From Ureibacillus sinduriensis BLB-1 = JCM 15800 (GTDB lineage Bacteria > Bacillota > Bacilli > Bacillales_A > Planococcaceae): DNA of 64,000 nt. The position numbers were made by a program, and so were the translations under genes. The DNA lies in assembly GCF_000772955.1 (NCBI RefSeq), contig NZ_JPVO01000039.1, forward strand, positions 1-64,000, given 5' to 3'. The stretch's first letter is position 1. The number at the start of each line of letters is the position of its first letter. Below, piece after piece: positions 475-23,282 of the stretch. The notes below the pieces were generated by a model, which did no database searches, had not been told where the DNA came from, and saw nothing but the letters and a program-made list of their open reading frames with translations.

Positions 475-1080
475 TTATAAATTATTTTCATACCACTGTT
501 TTGCGGCCTGAACTTCATTCATGGTTAATTGGTGGCCGTGATTTTCCCAATGCACATCAACCTTGGCTCCAGCCGCTTCCAGTAATTGCTTAAGTTCCAC
601 CGACTCCTGTTGCGGACAAATCGGATCGTTTGTACCAGCTGCTATATATACGTTCTTAGCGGTTAGATCCGGCAATTCAATACCTCGTCTAGGTACCATC
701 GGATGGTGTAAAATTGCTCCCATTAAAGCATCTTTATAATGGAATAAGAGACTTGCTGCAATATTGGCTCCGTTTGAATACCCTAATGCCAGGATGTTTT
801 GGCGATTAAATCTATATTCCTTTGAAGCATGATCTAAAAACTCATTTAATTCCTTTGTGCGGTAAATTAAATCCTCTTCATCAAATACACCTTCTGCTAA
901 ACGTCTGAAGAAACGGGGCATGCCATTCTCCAATACATTCCCTCTCACACTTAAATATGAAGCTTCGGGATCTACAATATCAGCTAGTGGAATTAAACCG
1001 TTTTCGTCGCCTCCTGTGCCATGCAATAATAGCAATACCGGCTTATCCTGGTTTGTTCCCTCTTTAAATATATGTCTCAC
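475..1080 (-). CDS. mhqD: MhqD-type phospholipase/carboxylesterase-family hydrolase
   Basis: A 201-residue alpha/beta hydrolase. Seen: oxyanion segment HGTGGDE at 20-26, nucleophile Ser102 in GYSNG, Asp152 in TNDP and His183 in HGH, giving a full Ser-Asp-His triad. No signal peptide, so probably cytosolic. In Bacillus subtilis the MhqD family is induced by hydroquinones and catechols and encoded beside a ring-cleaving dioxygenase; the same neighbour is found here two genes upstream. It is the last gene of the unit dioxygenase - flavin reductase - hydrolase and ends at a strong terminator. The natural substrate is unknown; hydrolysis of a thioester or ester from quinone detoxification is only inferred. 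Confidence 0.85.
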   Translation of the reverse strand: MRHIFKEGTNQDKPVLLLLHGTGGDENGLIPLADIVDPEASYLSVRGNVLENGMPRFFRRLAEGVFDEEDLIYRTKELNEFLDHASKEYRFNRQNILALGYSNGANIAASLLFHYKDALMGAILHHPMVPRRGIELPDLTAKNVYIAAGTNDPICPQQESVELKQLLEAAGAKVDVHWENHGHQLTMNEVQAAKQWYENNL

Positions 1081-1101: not shown

Positions 1102-1713
1102 TTATTCAGGTCTTATAATGGAGAATAATTCTCCTATTTCGGCGTATTCAGAACCCGCCAAACGGCTGACAGGGTTTAATATTTCCGCATTTATTCTGCC
1201 ATTTTCCTCGTAAATCTCTTCATTTAAATGGAACTGAATTACTTGTCCGATTAGTAGATCACAGAGCGATCCACCTTCTGAATCCAGTGGGATGGCTTTG
1301 ACCAGTTTGCATTCCATCCGAACTTTCGACTCCCTTATACCCGGTACGCTGATTGATGTGCTTGGAACCTGTGTCATCTTCGCAAGCTCTAGTTCACTTT
1401 CGTTAAAAGGCAAAGGTGCTGCTGTTTCATTGACCTGCGTCACATTATCGCGATCGACAATATGAACGACAAATTCTTCATTACTCTTTATATTTCTTGT
1501 AGTATCTTTCATGGCCCCATTCTCTCTTTGAATTGCCAAAGAGATCATCGGTGGATGGGCACATACAATATTGAAGTAACTAAAAGGTGCCCCGTTCACG
1601 ATATTTTGATCAGAGCTTGTTGTCACAAAGGCAATAGGTCTCGGAATAATAGTGCCTTTAAGAATCTTTGAAACTTCGTGTTCAGTAAGATCGTTGGGAT
1701 TAATGGAAATCAT
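1102..1713 (-). CDS. Flavin reductase-like (flavoredoxin) domain protein
   Basis: A 203-residue FMN-binding split-barrel protein of the flavoredoxin/YwrF type. The conserved PRPIAFVTT stretch lies near residues 24-32, followed by the NGAPFSYFN block that shapes the flavin pocket. I chose the ATG at 1713 because AAGGAGG sits just upstream; a longer open frame exists but has no ribosome site. It starts 10 bases after the dioxygenase gene and ends 21 bases before mhqD, so all three are one transcript. Likely role: supplying reduced flavin, or reducing a quinone or chlorinated aromatic, in the same pathway. The exact acceptor cannot be told from sequence. Confidence 0.8.
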   Translation of the reverse strand: MISINPNDLTEHEVSKILKGTIIPRPIAFVTTSSDQNIVNGAPFSYFNIVCAHPPMISLAIQRENGAMKDTTRNIKSNEEFVVHIVDRDNVTQVNETAAPLPFNESELELAKMTQVPSTSISVPGIRESKVRMECKLVKAIPLDSEGGSLCDLLIGQVIQFHLNEEIYEENGRINAEILNPVSRLAGSEYAEIGELFSIIRPE

Positions 1714-1723
1714 GTCGCCCTCC

Positions 1724-2662
1724 TTAGTCAAGTGGTCTAACTTCAATAGGGATCAGAGATTTCTCTAGTCGATCCCGTAGATGTTCGTATTGTTCCGGCA
1801 GCATTAGCTGGTTACCCATTATCTCGTAAGTCTCATCATGGGCAAAACCAGGTGGATCTGTAGCAATTTCGAATAAAATTTCACCCGACTCACGGAAGTA
1901 GATTGCATCAAAGTAGTTCCGATCCTTGATTTCAGTAACGTGTTGGCCTTGATTCATCGCGTAATTCTGCCATTCTCGGTGGTCTTTTGCATCGTTTGCA
2001 CGCCATGCGATATGATGGACTGTCCCAACACCCATTGTGCCTCGAACACCAGTAGTCATTTTTACATCTATAATATTTCCAATTTCAGCCGTTGCTTTAA
2101 AGCGAGTATAATCTCCTTCTGTTCCTACTATCTCTAGTCCCATTACATTAACTAACGTCGCCGCTGTTTCTTCCGGATGAACGGAGTATAGAGTAGCGCC
2201 GCCAAATCCCTTAATGGCCACATCTTTTGATATCCCACCAAATGTCCAAGGATCCAACGCTCCATCTCCACGTTCCACTATTTCAAGATGAAGACCATGT
2301 GGATCGTCAAATTGGAGATAAGTTTCTCCAAACCGTTTTGCTTCCATATATTCAATTTCAAATTTCAATAAGCGATTTTTCCAAAAATCCAGAGCTCCAG
2401 CAGGTACTACATATGTAGTCACACCGACTTGGCCGTCTCCTATTCTCCCCTGGTACGCATTCGCCCAAGGGAAGAATGTAATAATTGAACCAGGATTACC
2501 GCTTCCATCACCAAAATATAAATGATATGTTTCTGGATCATCAAAATTAATGGTTTTTTTCACAAGTCTTAAACCTAATACCCCTGCATAAAAATCGATA
2601 TTTTCTTGAGGATGGCCAACAATCGCAGTAATGTGGTGAATCCCCGTTGTTTGTTTTTTCAT
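1724..2662 (-). CDS. Mhq-type ring-cleaving dioxygenase (VOC/glyoxalase fold)
   Basis: A 312-residue protein with two tandem vicinal-oxygen-chelate domains. Seen: first-domain HHITAI (His10), second-domain VHHIAWR (215-221), and FEIATD (264-269), which place the two His and one Glu that bind the metal in extradiol-type enzymes. Length equals MhqO/MhqA of B. subtilis, proteins of the 2-methylhydroquinone response. The ATG at 2662 follows AGGAGG by 8 bases; the 17 extra upstream codons lack a ribosome site. It heads a three-gene operon. Unlike its paralogue at 3545-4528 it has no MhqR-type box, but a long inverted repeat at 2764-2817 lies upstream. Ring cleavage of a hydroquinone or catechol is the family-level inference. 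Confidence 0.85.
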   Translation of the reverse strand: MKKQTTGIHHITAIVGHPQENIDFYAGVLGLRLVKKTINFDDPETYHLYFGDGSGNPGSIITFFPWANAYQGRIGDGQVGVTTYVVPAGALDFWKNRLLKFEIEYMEAKRFGETYLQFDDPHGLHLEIVERGDGALDPWTFGGISKDVAIKGFGGATLYSVHPEETAATLVNVMGLEIVGTEGDYTRFKATAEIGNIIDVKMTTGVRGTMGVGTVHHIAWRANDAKDHREWQNYAMNQGQHVTEIKDRNYFDAIYFRESGEILFEIATDPPGFAHDETYEIMGNQLMLPEQYEHLRDRLEKSLIPIEVRPLD

Positions 2663-2763
2663 AGTGGTGCCTCCTAAAGTTATATGAACATAAAATCTGA
2701 GCACATCCTTCAATCGAATTTAATTGATTTGCTCAAATTTCATATTGTTAGAATTAGAATGAT

Positions 2764-2932: not shown

Positions 2933-3475
2933 TTAGCGGATAGTTTTTAACGCTGTCGCCCAAGGAATTACTTGGTCCAACATCTGGTTAACAGAATCTG
3001 CTTGAACTTCTTTCGGCTTAAAGTCAGTGCCATTTTCAAAATCAGTGAATAAAGATAATGCTGGGTGCACCCGTACGTCCGCTACTAATAATTCACCCAA
3101 GATACCGCGCAAGTGCTCTGCAGCACGCGCCCCTCCTACAGAACCGTAAGATACGATTCCAGCCGATTTGTTATTCCACTCTTCTCGCAAATAGTCCAAG
3201 GCGTTTTTAAGGGCACCCGTGATAGAGTGATTATATTCTTGTACAATAAAAACAAATCCATCTTGAGCAGCTACTGCTTGTGACCAAGCCGCCACCCCTG
3301 AGGTGTCACCGCCTGCTTCCCCTAGCAACGGCAGCTTGTAGTCTGCGATATCAATGATTGTATAGTTTGCGTCCCCGCGTTTGTCTGCTAATTCTTTTAC
3401 CCAAGAACCCACTTGAGGGCTTACTCGTCCTTCACGAGTTGAACCTAAAATAATACCAATATTTAACTTCGTCAT
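2933..3475 (-). CDS. NADPH-dependent FMN reductase-family (azoreductase-like) protein
   Basis: A 180-residue flavodoxin-fold reductase. Seen: the phosphate-binding loop GSTREGR near the N-terminus, a central VQEYNHSITGALKNALDY segment typical of the NADPH-dependent FMN reductase family, and GSVGG near the flavin ring site. The ATG at 3475 is preceded by AGAGGAGG at good spacing; the longer frame starting at 3526 has no such site. It follows the MhqR-boxed dioxygenase by 69 bases on the same strand. Two-electron quinone or azo reduction would fit the neighbours and the B. subtilis MhqR regulon, which includes azoreductase AzoR2. The substrate is inferred. Confidence 0.8.
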   Translation of the reverse strand: MTKLNIGIILGSTREGRVSPQVGSWVKELADKRGDANYTIIDIADYKLPLLGEAGGDTSGVAAWSQAVAAQDGFVFIVQEYNHSITGALKNALDYLREEWNNKSAGIVSYGSVGGARAAEHLRGILGELLVADVRVHPALSLFTDFENGTDFKPKEVQADSVNQMLDQVIPWATALKTIR

Positions 3476-3544
3476 TGTTTGTTCCTCCTCTTGTTTGTTT
3501 CCGAATAGTCTATTCAAAAATCCCATCTGATTAAATTCACCTTC

Positions 3545-4528
3545 TCATTCATATTGTTTTTCGAAATGTTTTGTACTTCGTACTGTATCGATCGGTCTGA
3601 CTAAATTTACTATTTCATCACGTTTTTCTTCGAAGAATGGTGGTAACGATAACTTTTCACCAAGCGTTTCATATGGTTCATCTCCCATAAATCCCGGGCC
3701 ATCTGTTGCCAATTCAAATAAAATCGAAGGAGCTACATTTGTGTAGAGTGATCCAAAATAATATCGCTCCACATAACCTGAGTTAGGCAATTTGAATTCT
3801 TGCAGACGTTGCTTCCAAGCTTCTAAGTCAGAACGATCATCCACGCGGAAGGCTGTATGATGCACAGTTCCAAATCCCTGTCTAGCTTGAGGTAACACCG
3901 TATTGTATTCCAAAATGACTTGGGCACCATTCCCACCTTCGCCCATTTCAAATAGATGGAAAGAATCTTCCTGTGCAATTTCTCTCATAAAGAATACTGT
4001 CTCCATAACCTCTTTAAGGTAATCAAAATAAGAAGTGCGGATATGGATTGGTCCCAACCCTGTGATGGCATATTCTAAAGGGATAGGCCCATCTTGCCAC
4101 GGTGTTCCTGATTCTACACCCTCGTTTAATTCATCAGAAATTAATTGATATTGTTGTTCATCAAAATCGGCGAAACCGATAATTTTCTTGCCGAATTGTT
4201 CCTTAATCCCTGTATGCTTCACCTTGAATCGATCAAAGCGTTTTTCCCAATATTGTAATGCGGCATCATCCTGTACACGGAATGATGTTTTTGAGATTTC
4301 ATTTGTCCCGTGTATTCCTTTTGGAATTCCGGGGAAATCAAAGAACGTCATATCCGTTCCCGGGCTGCCCACATCATCCGCAAAATATAAATGATATGTT
4401 TTAATATCATCCTGATTAACGGTTTTCTTTACTAAACGAAGGCCTAATGTGTAAGTAAAGAAATCATAAATCTTTTCCGCACTACTAGTAATTGCTGTTA
4501 CATGGTGCAATCCTTTTAATTCATCCAT
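3545..4528 (-). CDS. Second Mhq-type ring-cleaving dioxygenase
   Basis: A 327-residue tandem VOC protein, a paralogue of the one at 1724-2662. Seen: LHHVTAI (His8/9), VHHTAFR around 222-228 and a later ILFELATD block, again giving His/His/Glu metal ligands. The ATG at 4528 follows TTTGGAG by 9 bases; the in-frame GTG three codons upstream is too close to that site. A perfect MhqR-type palindrome lies 18 bases upstream, next to an AT-rich -10 region, so induction by quinones through loss of MhqR binding is likely. The flavin reductase gene downstream is probably cotranscribed. No mhqR gene is visible nearby. Confidence 0.85.
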   Translation of the reverse strand: MDELKGLHHVTAITSSAEKIYDFFTYTLGLRLVKKTVNQDDIKTYHLYFADDVGSPGTDMTFFDFPGIPKGIHGTNEISKTSFRVQDDAALQYWEKRFDRFKVKHTGIKEQFGKKIIGFADFDEQQYQLISDELNEGVESGTPWQDGPIPLEYAITGLGPIHIRTSYFDYLKEVMETVFFMREIAQEDSFHLFEMGEGGNGAQVILEYNTVLPQARQGFGTVHHTAFRVDDRSDLEAWKQRLQEFKLPNSGYVERYYFGSLYTNVAPSILFELATDGPGFMGDEPYETLGEKLSLPPFFEEKRDEIVNLVRPIDTVRSTKHFEKQYE

Positions 4529-4545
4529 TAGTATCACTCCAAAAC

Positions 4546-4563
4546 TATCTCGAATTCGAGATA
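4546..4563. promoter_or_regulatory. MhqR-type operator 1
   Basis: TATCTCGAATTCGAGATA is a perfect 18-bp palindrome and matches the box described for the MarR/DUF24-era quinone sensor MhqR of B. subtilis. It lies immediately upstream of the ribosome site of the dioxygenase gene that starts at 4528. Confidence 0.8.
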
Positions 4564-4698
4564 TTTAATTAAAAAAATTTCACTTCTGTCTTCTATATTA
4601 TTATGGATTGTTTACTTCGCTTTTATTCAGCAACTGTTATTATTCAACTTTGAAAATTACTATTAAGTGAAGAAAACTGTCATCTTGATTTCTTAATT

Positions 4699-4738
4699 TT
4701 TTAAAAGAGGGCAACCAACCTTGTTGTATTGCCCTCTT
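4699..4738 (-). terminator. Terminator of the YceI gene
   Basis: Arms AAGAGGGCAA (4705-4714) and TTGCCCTCTT (4729-4738). On the minus strand the stem is followed by TTTTAAAAAATT. It separates the YceI unit from the dioxygenase unit. Confidence 0.8.
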
Positions 4739-4755
4739 GTTCCCATTCTTAAGCT

Positions 4756-5283
4756 TTATGCTACTGGGTTAACTTCCAATTCAACTTTAATTTTAATGTC
4801 TTTACCAACTAGTACGCCACCTGTTTCAAGTGCAGCATTCCAAGTTAAACCGAATTCTTCACGGTTAAGTTTAGCTTCCGCTTCGAAACCATAAACTTCT
4901 ACACCCCATGGATTTTTGCCTTTACCGCCATATTCAACGTCAAATGTTACTGGTTTTGTTACGTCCTTAATTGTTAAATCACCAGTTACTTTGTAGTCAT
5001 CGCCATCTCTAGTGATGTTTGTTGATTTGAACTCGATTGAAGGGAATTGTTCTGCATCAAAGAAATCCGCACCTTTTAAGTGATTATCGCGGTCTTCGCT
5101 GCGTGTATTAACACTTGCAACATCAAATTTGAATGCAATTGTCGCTGAAGTCAAGTCTGCAAGATCTGCTGCTTCTACATCAGCAGTATAAGAATCGAAA
5201 GTTCCTTTCACTTTTGAAACCATCATATGTTTTACTTCAAATCCAACACTCGAATGAGATTGATCCACTATCCATTTTGCCAT
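4756..5283 (-). CDS. YceI-family polyisoprenoid-binding protein
   Basis: A 175-residue YceI-domain protein over its whole length: N-terminal WIVDQSHSSVGFEVKHMM, the DFFDAEQFP block and the C-terminal GVLVGKDIKIKVELEV strand. The family forms a lipocalin-like barrel that binds long isoprenoid or isoprenoid-quinone chains. No signal peptide is visible, so it should stay in the cytoplasm. The ATG at 5283 follows TTGGAGG. It is a single-gene unit with two MhqR-type boxes upstream (5305-5322, 5374-5391). That places an isoprenoid-quinone-binding fold inside a quinone-stress regulon. A role in sequestering or carrying damaged menaquinone is my inference. Confidence 0.85.
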   Translation of the reverse strand: MAKWIVDQSHSSVGFEVKHMMVSKVKGTFDSYTADVEAADLADLTSATIAFKFDVASVNTRSEDRDNHLKGADFFDAEQFPSIEFKSTNITRDGDDYKVTGDLTIKDVTKPVTFDVEYGGKGKNPWGVEVYGFEAEAKLNREEFGLTWNAALETGGVLVGKDIKIKVELEVNPVA

Positions 5284-5304
5284 TTTATTTTCCTCCAATG
5301 TGTT

Positions 5305-5322
5305 TATCTTGAAATCGAGATA
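5305..5322. promoter_or_regulatory. MhqR-type operator 2 (YceI promoter)
   Basis: TATCTTGAAATCGAGATA matches the perfect box at 4546 in 16 of 18 bases. It abuts a minus-strand TATAAT (-10) at 5322-5327, an ideal place for repression of the gene starting at 5283. Confidence 0.7.
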
Positions 5323-5373
5323 TTATATTAAAAAAATTTTTGTTTGAATTCATTATATTATTTCGAACTGAGT

Positions 5374-5391
5374 TATCTCTAATTCGAGATA
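5374..5391. promoter_or_regulatory. MhqR-type operator 3 (YceI upstream)
   Basis: TATCTCTAATTCGAGATA differs from the perfect box at one base. It lies 69 bp (about 6.5 helical turns) from operator 2, so cooperative binding or looping is possible. Confidence 0.7.
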
Positions 5392-5441
5392 AATTTACCA
5401 TGATTCGAACTATCTTGTCAATACGTCAATAAAAGTTTTTT

Positions 5442-5467
5442 AAAAAAGATTGCTCATTTCTGAGCAA
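5442..5467 (-). terminator. Terminator of lytH
   Basis: TTGCTCA (5450-5456) pairs with TGAGCAA (5461-5467) around a 4-base loop and is followed on the minus strand by CTTTTTT. Confidence 0.8.
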
Positions 5468-5474
5468 CCTCCAT

Positions 5475-6473
5475 TTATTTCCTTTGTTGTTTCGTGAATT
5501 TTTCCCACTGTACAAGAGAGGGATATGGATCAAATGCCCATTCTGTCCGACCGTTAAATTTATACATTCCATAGTGCAAATGTGGCGGGAATTTCCCGGA
5601 AGTGCCTTCTTTCCCATAGCCAGAGCTCCCCACACCGCCTAGTAGCATTCCCGGTTCAACCATGTCGCCTACCTTCAAATCCTTGTTGAAGTATGCTAAA
5701 TGGGCATAGTAGTGATACGTATTGTGATTATCCCTTATTCCTACACGCCAGCCACCAAATTCATTCCACCCCATCACTTCAACGACGCCATACGAAGTAG
5801 AAACTACAGGTGTACTGTAACCGGCAAATATATCAGTTCCTTCATGTATACGTCTTCCACCCCAGCCCCGGTTGGCACCCCAAGTTCCCCTGTAGCTATA
5901 ATTATATCCACGCACCGGTACAGGGAAAACGTGTGTATCTAAGTCGATTGTGTCATAGTGTTTATACATTTTAGCAATCGTTAGTATCTGATTAACAGCC
6001 TCTTCGGTTTGGTAATACTCATACAAAGCAAGTTTGAAATCCTCCTCTGTCGGCCCAAACTGGCTTAAATAATTTGCTATAGTAAAAATCACATCTTCGT
6101 CATCGTCCCGGCTCGCATCGCCATCACCATTTCCATCGAGCCCTAAACCTCCAAAATACTCTATTGAGAATGGGGATGTATCATCAGGTTGAGGGTTCAA
6201 TGCCCCTGCCCAGGACTCTTTAGAAAACTGTATGGCAACGGTGCTTTCTCGTTTGGGTATATCCGGCCTAACTGCTTGGATGTTTCGTTCATATTGGTCG
6301 ATGGCTGCTAAGTTATACCAAGGGACAATATGGTCTTGAAATTGTATATACATAGACATACGTTGCTCGATTACTTGTTCCCTCGAGGGCGCTTCATTTG
6401 CATTAACATCCTCGGAAAGAACTGTAGTGCCAATTAACAGGAATATAGACAATAGTACTAAATGCCGAACCAA
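5475..6473 (-). CDS. lytH: LytH-type M23 peptidoglycan endopeptidase
   Basis: A 332-residue secreted zinc peptidase. Seen: an N-terminal signal peptide (about 1-25), an acidic DGNGDGDASRDDDED stretch at 113-127 that could bind calcium, and a C-terminal M23 domain with His210 and Asp214 (HEGTD), His258 (YAHL) and His298/His300 (HLHYG). The GTWGA, FGGWR, PPHLHYGMY and DPYPSLVQWE blocks match LytH of B. subtilis, an L-Ala-D-Glu endopeptidase made late in sporulation that shapes spore cortex cross-linking. It stands alone between its own terminator and the divergent thioredoxin gene. Mother-cell, sporulation-stage expression is expected from the family; I could not identify its promoter with confidence. 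Confidence 0.9.
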   Translation of the reverse strand: MVRHLVLLSIFLLIGTTVLSEDVNANEAPSREQVIEQRMSMYIQFQDHIVPWYNLAAIDQYERNIQAVRPDIPKRESTVAIQFSKESWAGALNPQPDDTSPFSIEYFGGLGLDGNGDGDASRDDDEDVIFTIANYLSQFGPTEEDFKLALYEYYQTEEAVNQILTIAKMYKHYDTIDLDTHVFPVPVRGYNYSYRGTWGANRGWGGRRIHEGTDIFAGYSTPVVSTSYGVVEVMGWNEFGGWRVGIRDNHNTYHYYAHLAYFNKDLKVGDMVEPGMLLGGVGSSGYGKEGTSGKFPPHLHYGMYKFNGRTEWAFDPYPSLVQWEKFTKQQRK

Positions 6474-20844: not shown

Positions 20845-20895
20845 AAAGGCCCTAAAGAACCGCCCCATTAAACGGTTTTTTTAGGGCCTCTTTTA
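20845..20895. terminator. Bidirectional terminator between yugN-like and GGDEF/EAL genes
   Basis: AGGCCCTAAA (20847-20856) pairs with TTTAGGGCCT (20880-20889), enclosing a smaller CCG/CGG stem. T-runs are present on both strands. Confidence 0.75.
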
Positions 20896-23145
20896 TGTCC
20901 TTTGGAAATAACTAGAAACTTGTTCGTAAACAAATTCTGTATTTGGTATCGGTTGATTCTTTATTCTTAGTGTAGTCATTTGATTTATGAGCCGCGCTAA
21001 ATAATCTTCATACGTCCGATTTAAACGGAACAACACCCCATAGGAATAGACGTCCGGAAGTTCCTCCTCAATCCATCGCAGCCTTCCATACAGTTCAATC
21101 ACCTCTCCAAGTACTTTAAACTCAAATTTAAATTTCATATTGGAGTTCACTGGCAGTTTTAAATTGGATAAGACTCTTATGCCGCCCAAGCTTAAATTTT
21201 CAATTAAAATCGGTGTCGAACCAACATGGACAACCTGATCATTGACTTCTGCAATCGTCATTTCACCTTGGATATGGAGTGGCAACTCAAAACGATAGAA
21301 TTTCCTATTTTCCCGCATGCCACTTTTCCTTTTAGATTTTTGCACTGCTTTTAAATAACCAACTTGAATCATTTTCTCATATTTTTCCTTCGGTACAGGC
21401 TCCGAAAATAGAAAACCTTGGATCATATCACATTCATTGTGCTTTAAGAACTCCAGTTGCCCCTTTTCTTCCACCCCTTCCGCAACAACTTTCATTTCCA
21501 ACCTTTTCCCTAAAAATAAAATGGAAGCAATCACACCTTTATCGATTTCACTGTCGCTTTTAATATTATTGATGAACGTTTGATCGATCTTGATGGTATC
21601 TGGTTTAATCTTTCGCAAATAGTCAAGGGATGAATATCCTGTTCCAAAATCATCAATCGCTATTTTTACACCTAATTCCTTCAATTCATTTAAGATGGTT
21701 AATACCGTTTGATCCGTTTTTAATAGAGAACTTTCTGTTATCTCTAACTCTAGATAATGGGGCTCCACATCGTACTTTTCTAGTTGTTTTTGTATCAGTT
21801 CCACCAAGCCATCTTTCATAAAGCGCATGGGTGAAATATTGATTGAGATCGGATAAATTCGATAACCTTTTACCTTCCATTCATGAAGGATTGCACAAAC
21901 TTTTTCAATCTCCCAATCAATTATGTTATTAATCATATGATTTTCCTCTGCTAATGGGATAAATTCTGCAGGGGAAATATCTCCCCATTCAGGATGCTGC
22001 CAGCGAATGAGCACCTCTGCTCCAACAATGAACCCTTCCCTAGGCTCAACTTGGGGTTGGAAGTATAAGTTAAACTCGTCATTTATTAGTGCCAAGCGCA
22101 TATCTCGGTCCAAGACATATTTTTTATAGGATGGAATATCTTTGGAATATGAAAACAACTGGTAATTATTTTTTCCCTGCCGCTTTGCTTGATAAAGGGC
22201 TGTATGGGCATTTTCCAACAAAGTTAGCCTGCCTTCCCCTTCTTCAGGGAAAAACGTTATGCCGATACTCGTCGTCATATGTAATACATAGTCCCGGATA
22301 GTGATGGGCTTTTCAAAAGAACGAAGTATTTTGTCTGCTACTTCGTAAACTTCTTCTTCGTACTCATAGTTTTTCACTACCAAAATAAAGTCATTACTAT
22401 TTAAACGTGCTAAGTATCCTTCTTCTGGTGTTAAATCGGAAAGGCGAAGTGCAATCTTTTTCAGTGCTTCGTCTCCAATTTGATAACCTAAGGAGTTATT
22501 TATGACATGGAATCGATCAATGTCCAGGTAAAGAAGGGAAAACTTTATGCCCTCTCGACAAAAATGATCCAGCTTTTCAAACAGGCTTTTCTGATTTGGA
22601 AGCCGTGTTAACGAGTCATAGTGAGCCAAGAAATTCAGTTTTTCTTCGATTTTCATTTCGTGGGTGACATCTGTGATCATGCCGAAAATTTGTGTAACGA
22701 TTCCATCATCCTTGACTCTCGGAATAATTTGTTCGAGTAGCCACTTTTTTTGACCTTTGCCATCGTTGATAGGATAAAGCATTTGGACCTTTTTTCCTTC
22801 AGCAACCATCTCTAGATGAGCAGCCACTTCTTTTTTATGCATTGAATGAACCATTTGAAACCTTAATGACGGTGTTTCATAAATTTTATCTAAAGGGAGA
22901 TTTAGGATTTCTTCAAAGCCCTTTGAAGCATAGACTAAGTCCCCTTGTATTTCCTCACGCATCCAAATTCCGGATGTTAAGTGGTCAAATATGTATTGAA
23001 AATTGTTAAATTCGATTTCAAACCCATTTTCAGCCAAATGTGTATGCTCAAAATAATCTTCCTTCATAGCCCCGCTCAGTTTTGTTGTTTCCACATTATT
23101 GAATAGGCGCTTCAAAATATTCAACTTTTGCTCCTTATACTTCAA
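20893..23145 (-). CDS. PAS-GGDEF-EAL-PilZ cyclic-di-GMP protein
   Basis: 750 residues. Domains in order: PAS (about 45-165), GGDEF (175-335), EAL (355-595), PilZ (612-715). The GGDEF site reads NSNDF (249-253), so cyclase activity is probably lost. The EAL site reads EVL (377-379) with DDFGTGYSS (498-506) and EGVEE kept, so phosphodiesterase activity is likely. PilZ keeps RKFYR (614-618) and NLSLGG (650-655), both c-di-GMP contacts. Start TTG at 23145 follows AGGAGG by 7 bases; a longer frame to 23205 exists without such a site. No membrane helix: a cytosolic, sensor-controlled c-di-GMP hydrolase with a built-in effector domain. Confidence 0.9.
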   Translation of the reverse strand: MKYKEQKLNILKRLFNNVETTKLSGAMKEDYFEHTHLAENGFEIEFNNFQYIFDHLTSGIWMREEIQGDLVYASKGFEEILNLPLDKIYETPSLRFQMVHSMHKKEVAAHLEMVAEGKKVQMLYPINDGKGQKKWLLEQIIPRVKDDGIVTQIFGMITDVTHEMKIEEKLNFLAHYDSLTRLPNQKSLFEKLDHFCREGIKFSLLYLDIDRFHVINNSLGYQIGDEALKKIALRLSDLTPEEGYLARLNSNDFILVVKNYEYEEEVYEVADKILRSFEKPITIRDYVLHMTTSIGITFFPEEGEGRLTLLENAHTALYQAKRQGKNNYQLFSYSKDIPSYKKYVLDRDMRLALINDEFNLYFQPQVEPREGFIVGAEVLIRWQHPEWGDISPAEFIPLAEENHMINNIIDWEIEKVCAILHEWKVKGYRIYPISINISPMRFMKDGLVELIQKQLEKYDVEPHYLELEITESSLLKTDQTVLTILNELKELGVKIAIDDFGTGYSSLDYLRKIKPDTIKIDQTFINNIKSDSEIDKGVIASILFLGKRLEMKVVAEGVEEKGQLEFLKHNECDMIQGFLFSEPVPKEKYEKMIQVGYLKAVQKSKRKSGMRENRKFYRFELPLHIQGEMTIAEVNDQVVHVGSTPILIENLSLGGIRVLSNLKLPVNSNMKFKFEFKVLGEVIELYGRLRWIEEELPDVYSYGVLFRLNRTYEDYLARLINQMTTLRIKNQPIPNTEFVYEQVSSYFQRT

Positions 23146-23282
23146 ATCCCCACCTCCTCCTAAACTATTAATTATTAGTGATTTGGAATTGTATAATATA
23201 AACATTTTAGTTCAAAGGTCACTAATTAGACATAGGTAATATTTACTTATATCAATATTATAGTCCCCCTGCACGAATAATT

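Follow-up and report, generated by a model that had tools for sequence, protein, structure and literature searches.

The yceI locus of Ureibacillus sinduriensis and its boxes

The window analysed here is a stretch of 64,000 nucleotides, positions 1 to 64,000 of contig NZ_JPVO01000039.1 from Ureibacillus sinduriensis BLB-1, whose genome (G000) comprises 4.02 Mb in 55 contigs. Its minus strand carries, in this order, a yceI gene, a terminator-like stem, a dioxygenase-superfamily gene (4528-3545) and a flavin mononucleotide (FMN) reductase gene (3478-2933). Three 18-bp boxes resembling the operator of the quinone-stress repressor MhqR lie ahead of yceI and of the dioxygenase gene, and on sequence evidence we consider yceI very probably a conserved member of the MhqR regulon. 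The features concerned are listed below.

5416-5421, minus strand: -35 element TTGACA of the yceI promoter, read directly from the sequence
5393-5398, minus strand: -10 element GTAAAT of the yceI promoter, read directly; the spacer is 17 nt and the element ends one base before the distal box
5374-5391, no strand: distal MhqR-type operator with 1 mismatch, from the motif scan, at the expected transcription start
5330-5336, minus strand: run of seven T on the coding strand, 7 nt ahead of the proximal operator, read directly
5305-5322, no strand: proximal MhqR-type operator with 2 mismatches, in the leader, from the motif scan
5291-5296, minus strand: Shine-Dalgarno sequence GGAGGA of yceI, read directly
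4756-5283, minus strand: yceI, open reading frame (ORF) of 175 aa, YceI/lipocalin-like (PF04264, E 5.7e-52), ATG at 5283, with a TTG start five codons farther up in the ORF list
4695-4738, minus strand: probable intrinsic terminator after yceI, stem GAGGGCAA/TTGCCCTC, by eye
4571-4577, minus strand: run of seven T, 7 nt (4564-4570) ahead of the dioxygenase operator, read directly
4546-4563, no strand: MhqR-type operator ahead of the dioxygenase unit, a perfect palindrome, from the motif scan
3545-4528, minus strand: ring-cleavage dioxygenase-superfamily (Glyoxalase/dioxygenase) protein, PF00903, MhqO/MhqE-like by context
2933-3478, minus strand: NADPH-dependent FMN reductase, azoreductase-like (PF03358, E 5.8e-34; start at 3526 in the ORF list)

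The genes are as the original prediction from the sequence had described them, namely YceI (PF04264) and a dioxygenase-superfamily protein with an NADPH-dependent FMN reductase (PF03358). No NCBIfam model passed its cut-off on the dioxygenase-superfamily protein at 3545-4528.

The window was scanned with the 18-bp pattern TATCTCGAATTCGAGATA at up to 3 mismatches, using the shuffled window as control. The scan returned 4546-4563 (0 mismatches), 5374-5391 (1), 5305-5322 (2) and 21739-21756 (3). At the same threshold the shuffled windows gave a mean of 0.03 matches and at most 1, and none of 100 reached 4. The first three sites confirm the one perfect and two near-perfect boxes initially described. 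The fourth, which lies inside ORF 20893-23205, was taken as chance and not counted; genome-wide, sites with 3 mismatches are no more frequent than matches of the backwards pattern. The proposed identity of the boxes was likewise borne out: the MhqR operator mapped in Staphylococcus aureus is a 9-9 bp palindrome of the TATCTCGAA-ATCGAAATA type (PMC6798810), and the operator also appears in PMC12893000. By sequence, the window boxes are of this published type.

A scan of the whole genome had been suggested as a check. No more than four sites had 2 mismatches or fewer, and all of them precede yceI or dioxygenase-type genes: two before yceI, one before the window dioxygenase gene and one perfect box at G000:C2:67156. 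The last (G000:C2:67156-67173, or L002:1501-1518) has a UbiA/MenA-type prenyltransferase gene on one side and a further gene of the dioxygenase superfamily on the other. Two further sites had 3 mismatches, and the backwards pattern likewise gave two. One weak box with 3 mismatches (G000:C3:66213-66230, locus L006), which lies a few nucleotides ahead of a gene for a zinc-type dehydrogenase, is at control level and was not counted. The prenyltransferase-box-dioxygenase order of the C2 site recurs in 6 of 23 loci (L112-L134) of the genus, namely L115, L119, L120, L121, L124 and L128.

Farther downstream on the minus strand follow three more genes.

1724-2665, minus strand: second dioxygenase-superfamily protein (PF00903; start at 2713 in the ORF list)
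1102-1725, minus strand: flavin reductase-like protein (PF01613, E 1.9e-24)
475-1077, minus strand: MhqD-like carboxylesterase (NF047577 quino_deg_MhqD, E 7.1e-59, 198.8 bits, under the curated cut-off of 325)

The window scan found no box at up to 3 mismatches ahead of the second dioxygenase gene, so that its membership of the regulon is unproven. An imperfect inverted repeat, ACAACACGTACACA / TGTGTACATGTTGT, lies at 2770-2816 between the FMN reductase and second dioxygenase genes and may be a terminator or an operator.

The MhqR-like regulator and conservation of the box

The genome holds 21 matches to PF01047 at E ≤0.001 and a single MhqR-like protein at E ≤1e-15. Its gene (L009:1396-1842) lies on contig C1, outside the window. 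The structures 9QDR and 9SMZ are identified as S. aureus MhqR; against 9qdr the L009 protein scored 110.7 bits, and the next solved MarR protein 50 bits. The recognition helix reads ASGSITYV versus ASSSISYV in S. aureus MhqR, with two positions differing. In the alignment, from which the numbering was mapped, the L009 protein keeps TEFAVLE (positions F39 and E43) and the H of FP-H (H111), and has Y in place of F11. A tree puts it together with S. aureus MhqR and the MarR proteins linked to yceI, against seven other MarR proteins of its own genome, with support of 84/93; the tree is rough, since its outgroup branches are long and its bootstrap had not settled. Judged by score, recognition helix and pocket residues, the L009 protein is closer to characterised MhqR than to other MarR proteins and is the likely MhqR orthologue, and the repressor on which the original prediction depended is represented by this one gene.

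We then compared named genomes, using the best 80 of 341 yceI relatives (73-93% identity; mostly Bacillaceae and Caryophanaceae by their titles), a set that leans to close relatives because only the best 80 were kept. The top named relative is from Ureibacillus aquaedulcis, at 93% identity. Within 250 bp upstream of yceI a box was present in 70 of the 80 loci at up to 3 mismatches and in 61 at up to 2. At 3 mismatches over the same distance, the reversed pattern matched in 0/80 loci and shuffled upstream sequences gave 0 in 10 x 80. A dioxygenase-superfamily relative occurs in 34/80 yceI loci. An mhqR-like gene adjoins yceI in 17/80; it comes directly after yceI on the same strand in 14, upstream on the same strand in L039 and L083, and upstream and divergent in L098.

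A class-wide survey covered 161 genomes drawn evenly from the class, with PF04264 in 67, an MhqR-like protein (E ≤1e-15) in 91 and both in 46. It yielded 72 yceI stretches, of which 58 were tabulated; 14 distant paralogues (L223-L236) were left out, 12 being without a box and 2 not alignable. At up to 3 mismatches a box preceded 14/38 yceI genes in genomes with MhqR versus 0/20 in genomes without it (Fisher p 0.001), a value that overstates independence because 12 of the 20 genes in the latter come from family f6, so that the contrast is partly one between families. Among genes with at least 53% identity to the window YceI the figures were 13/17 and 0/11; this cut was chosen after seeing the data and compares mostly family f1 (12/17) with f6 (11/11). 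One of the 14 box-positive genes (L220, family f9) is marginal, with 3 mismatches. In the 70 alignable survey stretches the reversed pattern had no match at up to 4 mismatches. Across the sample, then, no yceI gene from a genome without MhqR carries the box, and distant YceI paralogues lack it even in genomes with MhqR.

On the YceI tree the box label is clustered, since none of 500 shuffles was as low as its 11 changes. A single origin of the yceI box was not shown, as the label needs those 11 changes. No box at up to 3 mismatches precedes yceI in families f15 and f3, or in f9 except for L220. By eye, the f15 leaders (L188, L191, L192, L194, L197, L198 and L201) have conserved-looking elements of about GTCAAAATTTTT-GACAATAATTTGTC and GAAGTCAAGATTTGTGGTAA, and no MhqR box. 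In f9, which is possibly Staphylococcaceae, the yceI leaders (L210-L217, L220) show GTATA-N5-TATAC instead of a clear MhqR box. This motif (up to 1 mismatch) is present in 9/12 f9 yceI leaders, against 0.13 in shuffles and 0/58 in other loci. It may be the QsrR operator, an identity that a look-up did not confirm; if that identity is right, yceI would be under two different quinone repressors and the functional link would be strengthened. The f9 loci L211 and L214 also hold an mhqR-dioxygenase pair.

Could the boxes be chance palindromes in AT-rich intergenic DNA? With 0.03 matches expected per window, and with a box kept in 70/80 loci against none in the controls, we regard this as practically refuted, because the boxes are conserved across loci. 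A more substantial alternative is that their reader is a paralogue of MhqR, or some other MarR protein, that shares the operator and answers to a different ligand, such as an isoprenoid or membrane-lipid signal, which would place yceI outside the quinone response proper. In its favour, the 14 mhqR-like genes that come right after yceI form their own subclade (support 89/99), and many survey genomes have more than one MhqR-like gene. Yet the window genome has a single one (E ≤1e-15), and the one box with 2 mismatches or fewer that lies beyond the window stands before a gene of the dioxygenase superfamily. Moreover, all 17 yceI-adjoining proteins are 37-56% identical to S. aureus MhqR (local alignments over 95-139 residues), about as close as the MhqR of Bacillus subtilis (39.4%), and the recognition helices of the yceI-linked proteins are mostly SSSITYV or SGSITYV, as in MhqR. 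We judge control by such a paralogue improbable.

Several observations weigh against membership of yceI in the regulon. Ten of the 80 loci have no box within 250 bp at up to 3 mismatches (L052, L086, L091, L092, L094, L095, L100, L101, L109 and L111), and 24/38 surveyed yceI genes in genomes with MhqR lack one as well. No box was found within the 10 kb surrounding the window genome's own mhqR-like gene (L029). S. aureus MhqR controls only mhqRED (PMC6798810); S. epidermidis yceI was lowered (-1.26) by the xanthone alpha-mangostin (PMC6372523); and B. subtilis is not among the 6 of 14 control genomes with a PF04264 match. Among the ten loci, L052 has two boxes farther off, at -605 and -520. In the six Sporosarcina loci (L091, L092, L094, L095, L100 and L101) a dioxygenase gene and mhqD come first and yceI third; at four of them a box with 2 mismatches is found 1.73-1.76 kb ahead of yceI, and the other two have none at up to 3 mismatches in the locus.

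An independent sign in favour comes from S. aureus treated with the quinone-methide antibiotic kendomycin, in which a YceI-like protein rose 5.93-fold and an azoreductase 5.38-fold (PMC4721675, Table 2), together with SACOL2020 (2.12) and SACOL0409 (2.21), both called members of the QsrR regulon in PMC6798810. As MhqR controls only mhqRED there, S. aureus YceI must be induced in another way. The operon SACOL2588-89, one of the strongest responders to methylhydroquinone, was dropped as a YceI candidate, since a later paper assigns it to the TetR1 regulon, with unknown function.

Membership of yceI in the MhqR regulon remains the reading we hold very probable, on the combined grounds of the boxes, the promoter geometry, the MhqR-like gene, conservation across species, the co-localisation with mhqR and mhqD, and the lack of a box where MhqR is absent. 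The placing of yceI under MhqR-type operators, as originally proposed, is strongly supported by the box in 70/80 loci, the neighbours in 17/80 and the MhqR-like gene in the genome.

Promoter, leader and the T-run

To place the boxes relative to the promoter we used 81 leaders (the 80 loci and the window) and boxes at up to 4 mismatches. A distal box occurs in 63, a proximal box in 66 and both in 56. In 47/63 leaders with a distal box, an exact TTGACA is followed by a -10-like word whose last base lies 0-2 nt ahead of that box, compared with 0.03% of shuffled upstream sequences. A looser promoter scan (63/63) was uninformative, as 95% of the shuffles also pass. Because TTGACA-N17-GTAAAT ends one base before it, the distal box of the window should cover the yceI transcription start; the S. 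aureus mhqRED operator lies at -6 to +12 (PMC6798810). The proximal box (5305-5322), a little ahead of the Shine-Dalgarno sequence, should belong to the transcribed leader. Judged by position, the two boxes are not equivalent, one being at the promoter and one in the leader. The original prediction had read two boxes on one promoter as a sign of tight control; tight control is reasonable, and the second box is a downstream operator in the leader.

Across the leaders the proximal box begins 35-60 nt before the ATG, and the box-to-box distance is 47-174 nt. By eye, locus L048 has several half-sites (ATTCGAGATA-like) about every 17 bp past the distal box, at about -162 to -100 upstream of yceI, and some other yceI leaders have an extra operator half-site in a similar position.

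A run of at least five T stands just upstream of 54/66 proximal boxes, with a gap of exactly 7 nt in 38 and of 6-8 nt in 51. Runs of at least six T at 4-12 nt precede 51/66 proximal boxes, versus 146/3300 random positions in the same leaders. Other boxes, a class that still includes some yceI leaders, show the same geometry in 57/88, with a 7-nt gap in 37; it is seen at other dioxygenase leaders too, such as L034, L035, L118 and L133. Since RNA polymerase would run with its leading edge into a repressor bound 7 nt past the U-run when the active site is near that run, we infer that T7-N7-proximal box may be a roadblock module. On roadblock-type termination by repressors, the open-licence literature gave nothing on MhqR.

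The T-run might equally have nothing to do with elongation, being a mere DNA-shape feature that raises the affinity of MhqR or belonging to a second promoter. The window yceI leader has no terminator hairpin before the T-run, and a hairpin of -5 kcal/mol or below precedes it in only 12/54 yceI leaders, which favours this explanation, as does the fact that some leader hairpins use operator half-sites possibly upstream of the transcription start. Against it, the T-run is directional, being upstream in 86/130 orientable boxes versus a mirror A-run downstream in 11/130 (ribosome-binding sites limit the downstream space). Exact T6-N6-8-box occurs at 10 places in 9/101 family genomes (that of the window dioxygenase and 8 more), and A6-N6-8-box in 0/101. 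The second-promoter version also suffers because no -35 element stands out by eye ahead of the proximal boxes, and a second promoter there is not supported. We give the absence of an elongation role almost an even chance.

In a second set, a hairpin before the T-run was found in 8/29 yceI leaders and 24/57 other leaders, the latter again including some of yceI. An intrinsic terminator in every leader was rejected as a general rule, given the 12/54 above. A search of 4400-5600 against Rfam returned no known RNA element at E ≤1.

The YceI protein and comparison with known systems

The AlphaFold2 model of YceI (predicted local distance difference test, pLDDT, 88.5) is a series of long strands, and 24 aligned relatives have a mean column identity of 86%. 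Foldseek placed Escherichia coli YceI (1y0g) and Thermus TT1927b (1wub) at the top, with E about 1e-17. By sequence the closest solved relative is TT1927b (1wub, E 1.2e-39), titled a polyisoprenoid-binding protein. The export signal of Gram-negative members, which does not define the fold, is absent: the ATG comes directly before the domain, and the alignment pairs residue 8 of the query with residue 31 of the E. coli structure. As the ATG and Shine-Dalgarno sequence leave no room for a signal peptide, the window YceI is probably cytosolic.

Bacilli use menaquinone. Most YceI structures hold octaprenylphosphate, octaprenylphenol or ubiquinone-8 in the barrel, with ubiquinone-8 as a possible natural substrate (PMC9113575), and it is therefore plausible that this YceI binds menaquinone, a precursor or a toxic quinone. 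The quinone-lipid-handling branch of the original prediction is plausible to the same extent. By analogy, we grant slightly less than an even chance to a lipocalin-like role in the cytosol, in which YceI would carry or soak up hydrophobic (hydro)quinones or prenylated ones (menaquinone or its precursors). A somewhat weaker contender, though one to be taken seriously, leaves MhqR in control of yceI and has YceI scavenge small electrophiles, phenolics or lipid-peroxidation products instead of isoprenoid quinones. A Ralstonia yceI reportedly responds to methyl gallate (PMC8472277), and the known MhqR inducers are small benzoquinones (PMC6798810), which agrees with such general scavenging; the title of TT1927b and the octaprenyl lipids and ubiquinone-8 in most YceI structures speak against it.

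Combining these points, we propose the following. Without quinones, MhqR (the L009 product) would sit on both yceI operators, the distal one at the transcription start and the proximal one within the leader, so that yceI is blocked, and would also occupy the perfect operator ahead of the dioxygenase-FMN reductase unit. (Hydro)quinones would bind MhqR, which would leave the DNA, and YceI would then accumulate with the ring-cleavage dioxygenases, the reductase and perhaps the MhqD-like hydrolase. YceI might either protect hydrophobic or prenylated quinones or hand them to the reductase and dioxygenase. Binding, repression and induction of yceI by way of MhqR are inferred here from sequence. In its boldest form the proposal holds for Bacillaceae and Caryophanaceae at large: MhqR would block initiation at the distal box and elongation, as a roadblock on the U-run, at the proximal box with its fixed 7 nt; quinones would lift both blocks; and the yceI product would be a cytosolic quinone-binding lipocalin shuttling (mena)quinones or quinone toxins between the membrane and the enzymes of detoxification, which would give the quinone-stress response a lipid-carrier arm not known from the model species. 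We consider this whole unlikely, and put it forward as a speculation.

YceI proteins are widespread, and a place in the MhqR regulon would give their cytosolic Gram-positive branch a testable role in quinone stress, tying a possible quinone-carrier protein to the defence of the cell against toxic quinones; in some species yceI shares a gene cluster with mhqR or mhqD. No report of a link between MhqR and YceI was found in the open-licence literature, which excludes most subscription papers. Membership of yceI would enlarge a regulon so far defined in the model species S. aureus and B. subtilis, the latter of which showed no YceI match. The fixed spacing of T7-N7-operator hints at a second block, at the level of elongation, which work confined to mhqRED would overlook.

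E. coli YceI is exported. The window protein shares its fold, and that of Thermus TT1927b, by Foldseek, with clear sequence homology. BcnA of Burkholderia, also of the YceI family, is secreted and goes with the cytochrome b561 LcoA, whereas the window YceI has no signal peptide and its gene is tied to dioxygenases and a quinone-stress repressor, not to cytochrome b561. The QsrR/YodB (MarR/DUF24) regulon of staphylococci and Bacillus is likewise quinone-responsive, but its operator is unlike the window boxes, and it is not the type of control seen in the window. A close parallel is the MhqR regulon of B. subtilis and S. aureus (mhqRED, mhqNOP, mhqED, mhqA, azoR2), which shares with the present locus the operator type, an MhqR-like repressor and similar enzymes in the neighbourhood (dioxygenase superfamily, FMN/azo reductase, MhqD-like hydrolase). 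The distal yceI box, too, appears to be placed at the transcription start as in the known system. The present locus differs from that regulon in having a YceI lipocalin-like gene as the putative target, in the second operator in the leader, often with the fixed T7-N7 spacing, and in the mhqR-like gene that comes next after yceI in 14/80 loci.
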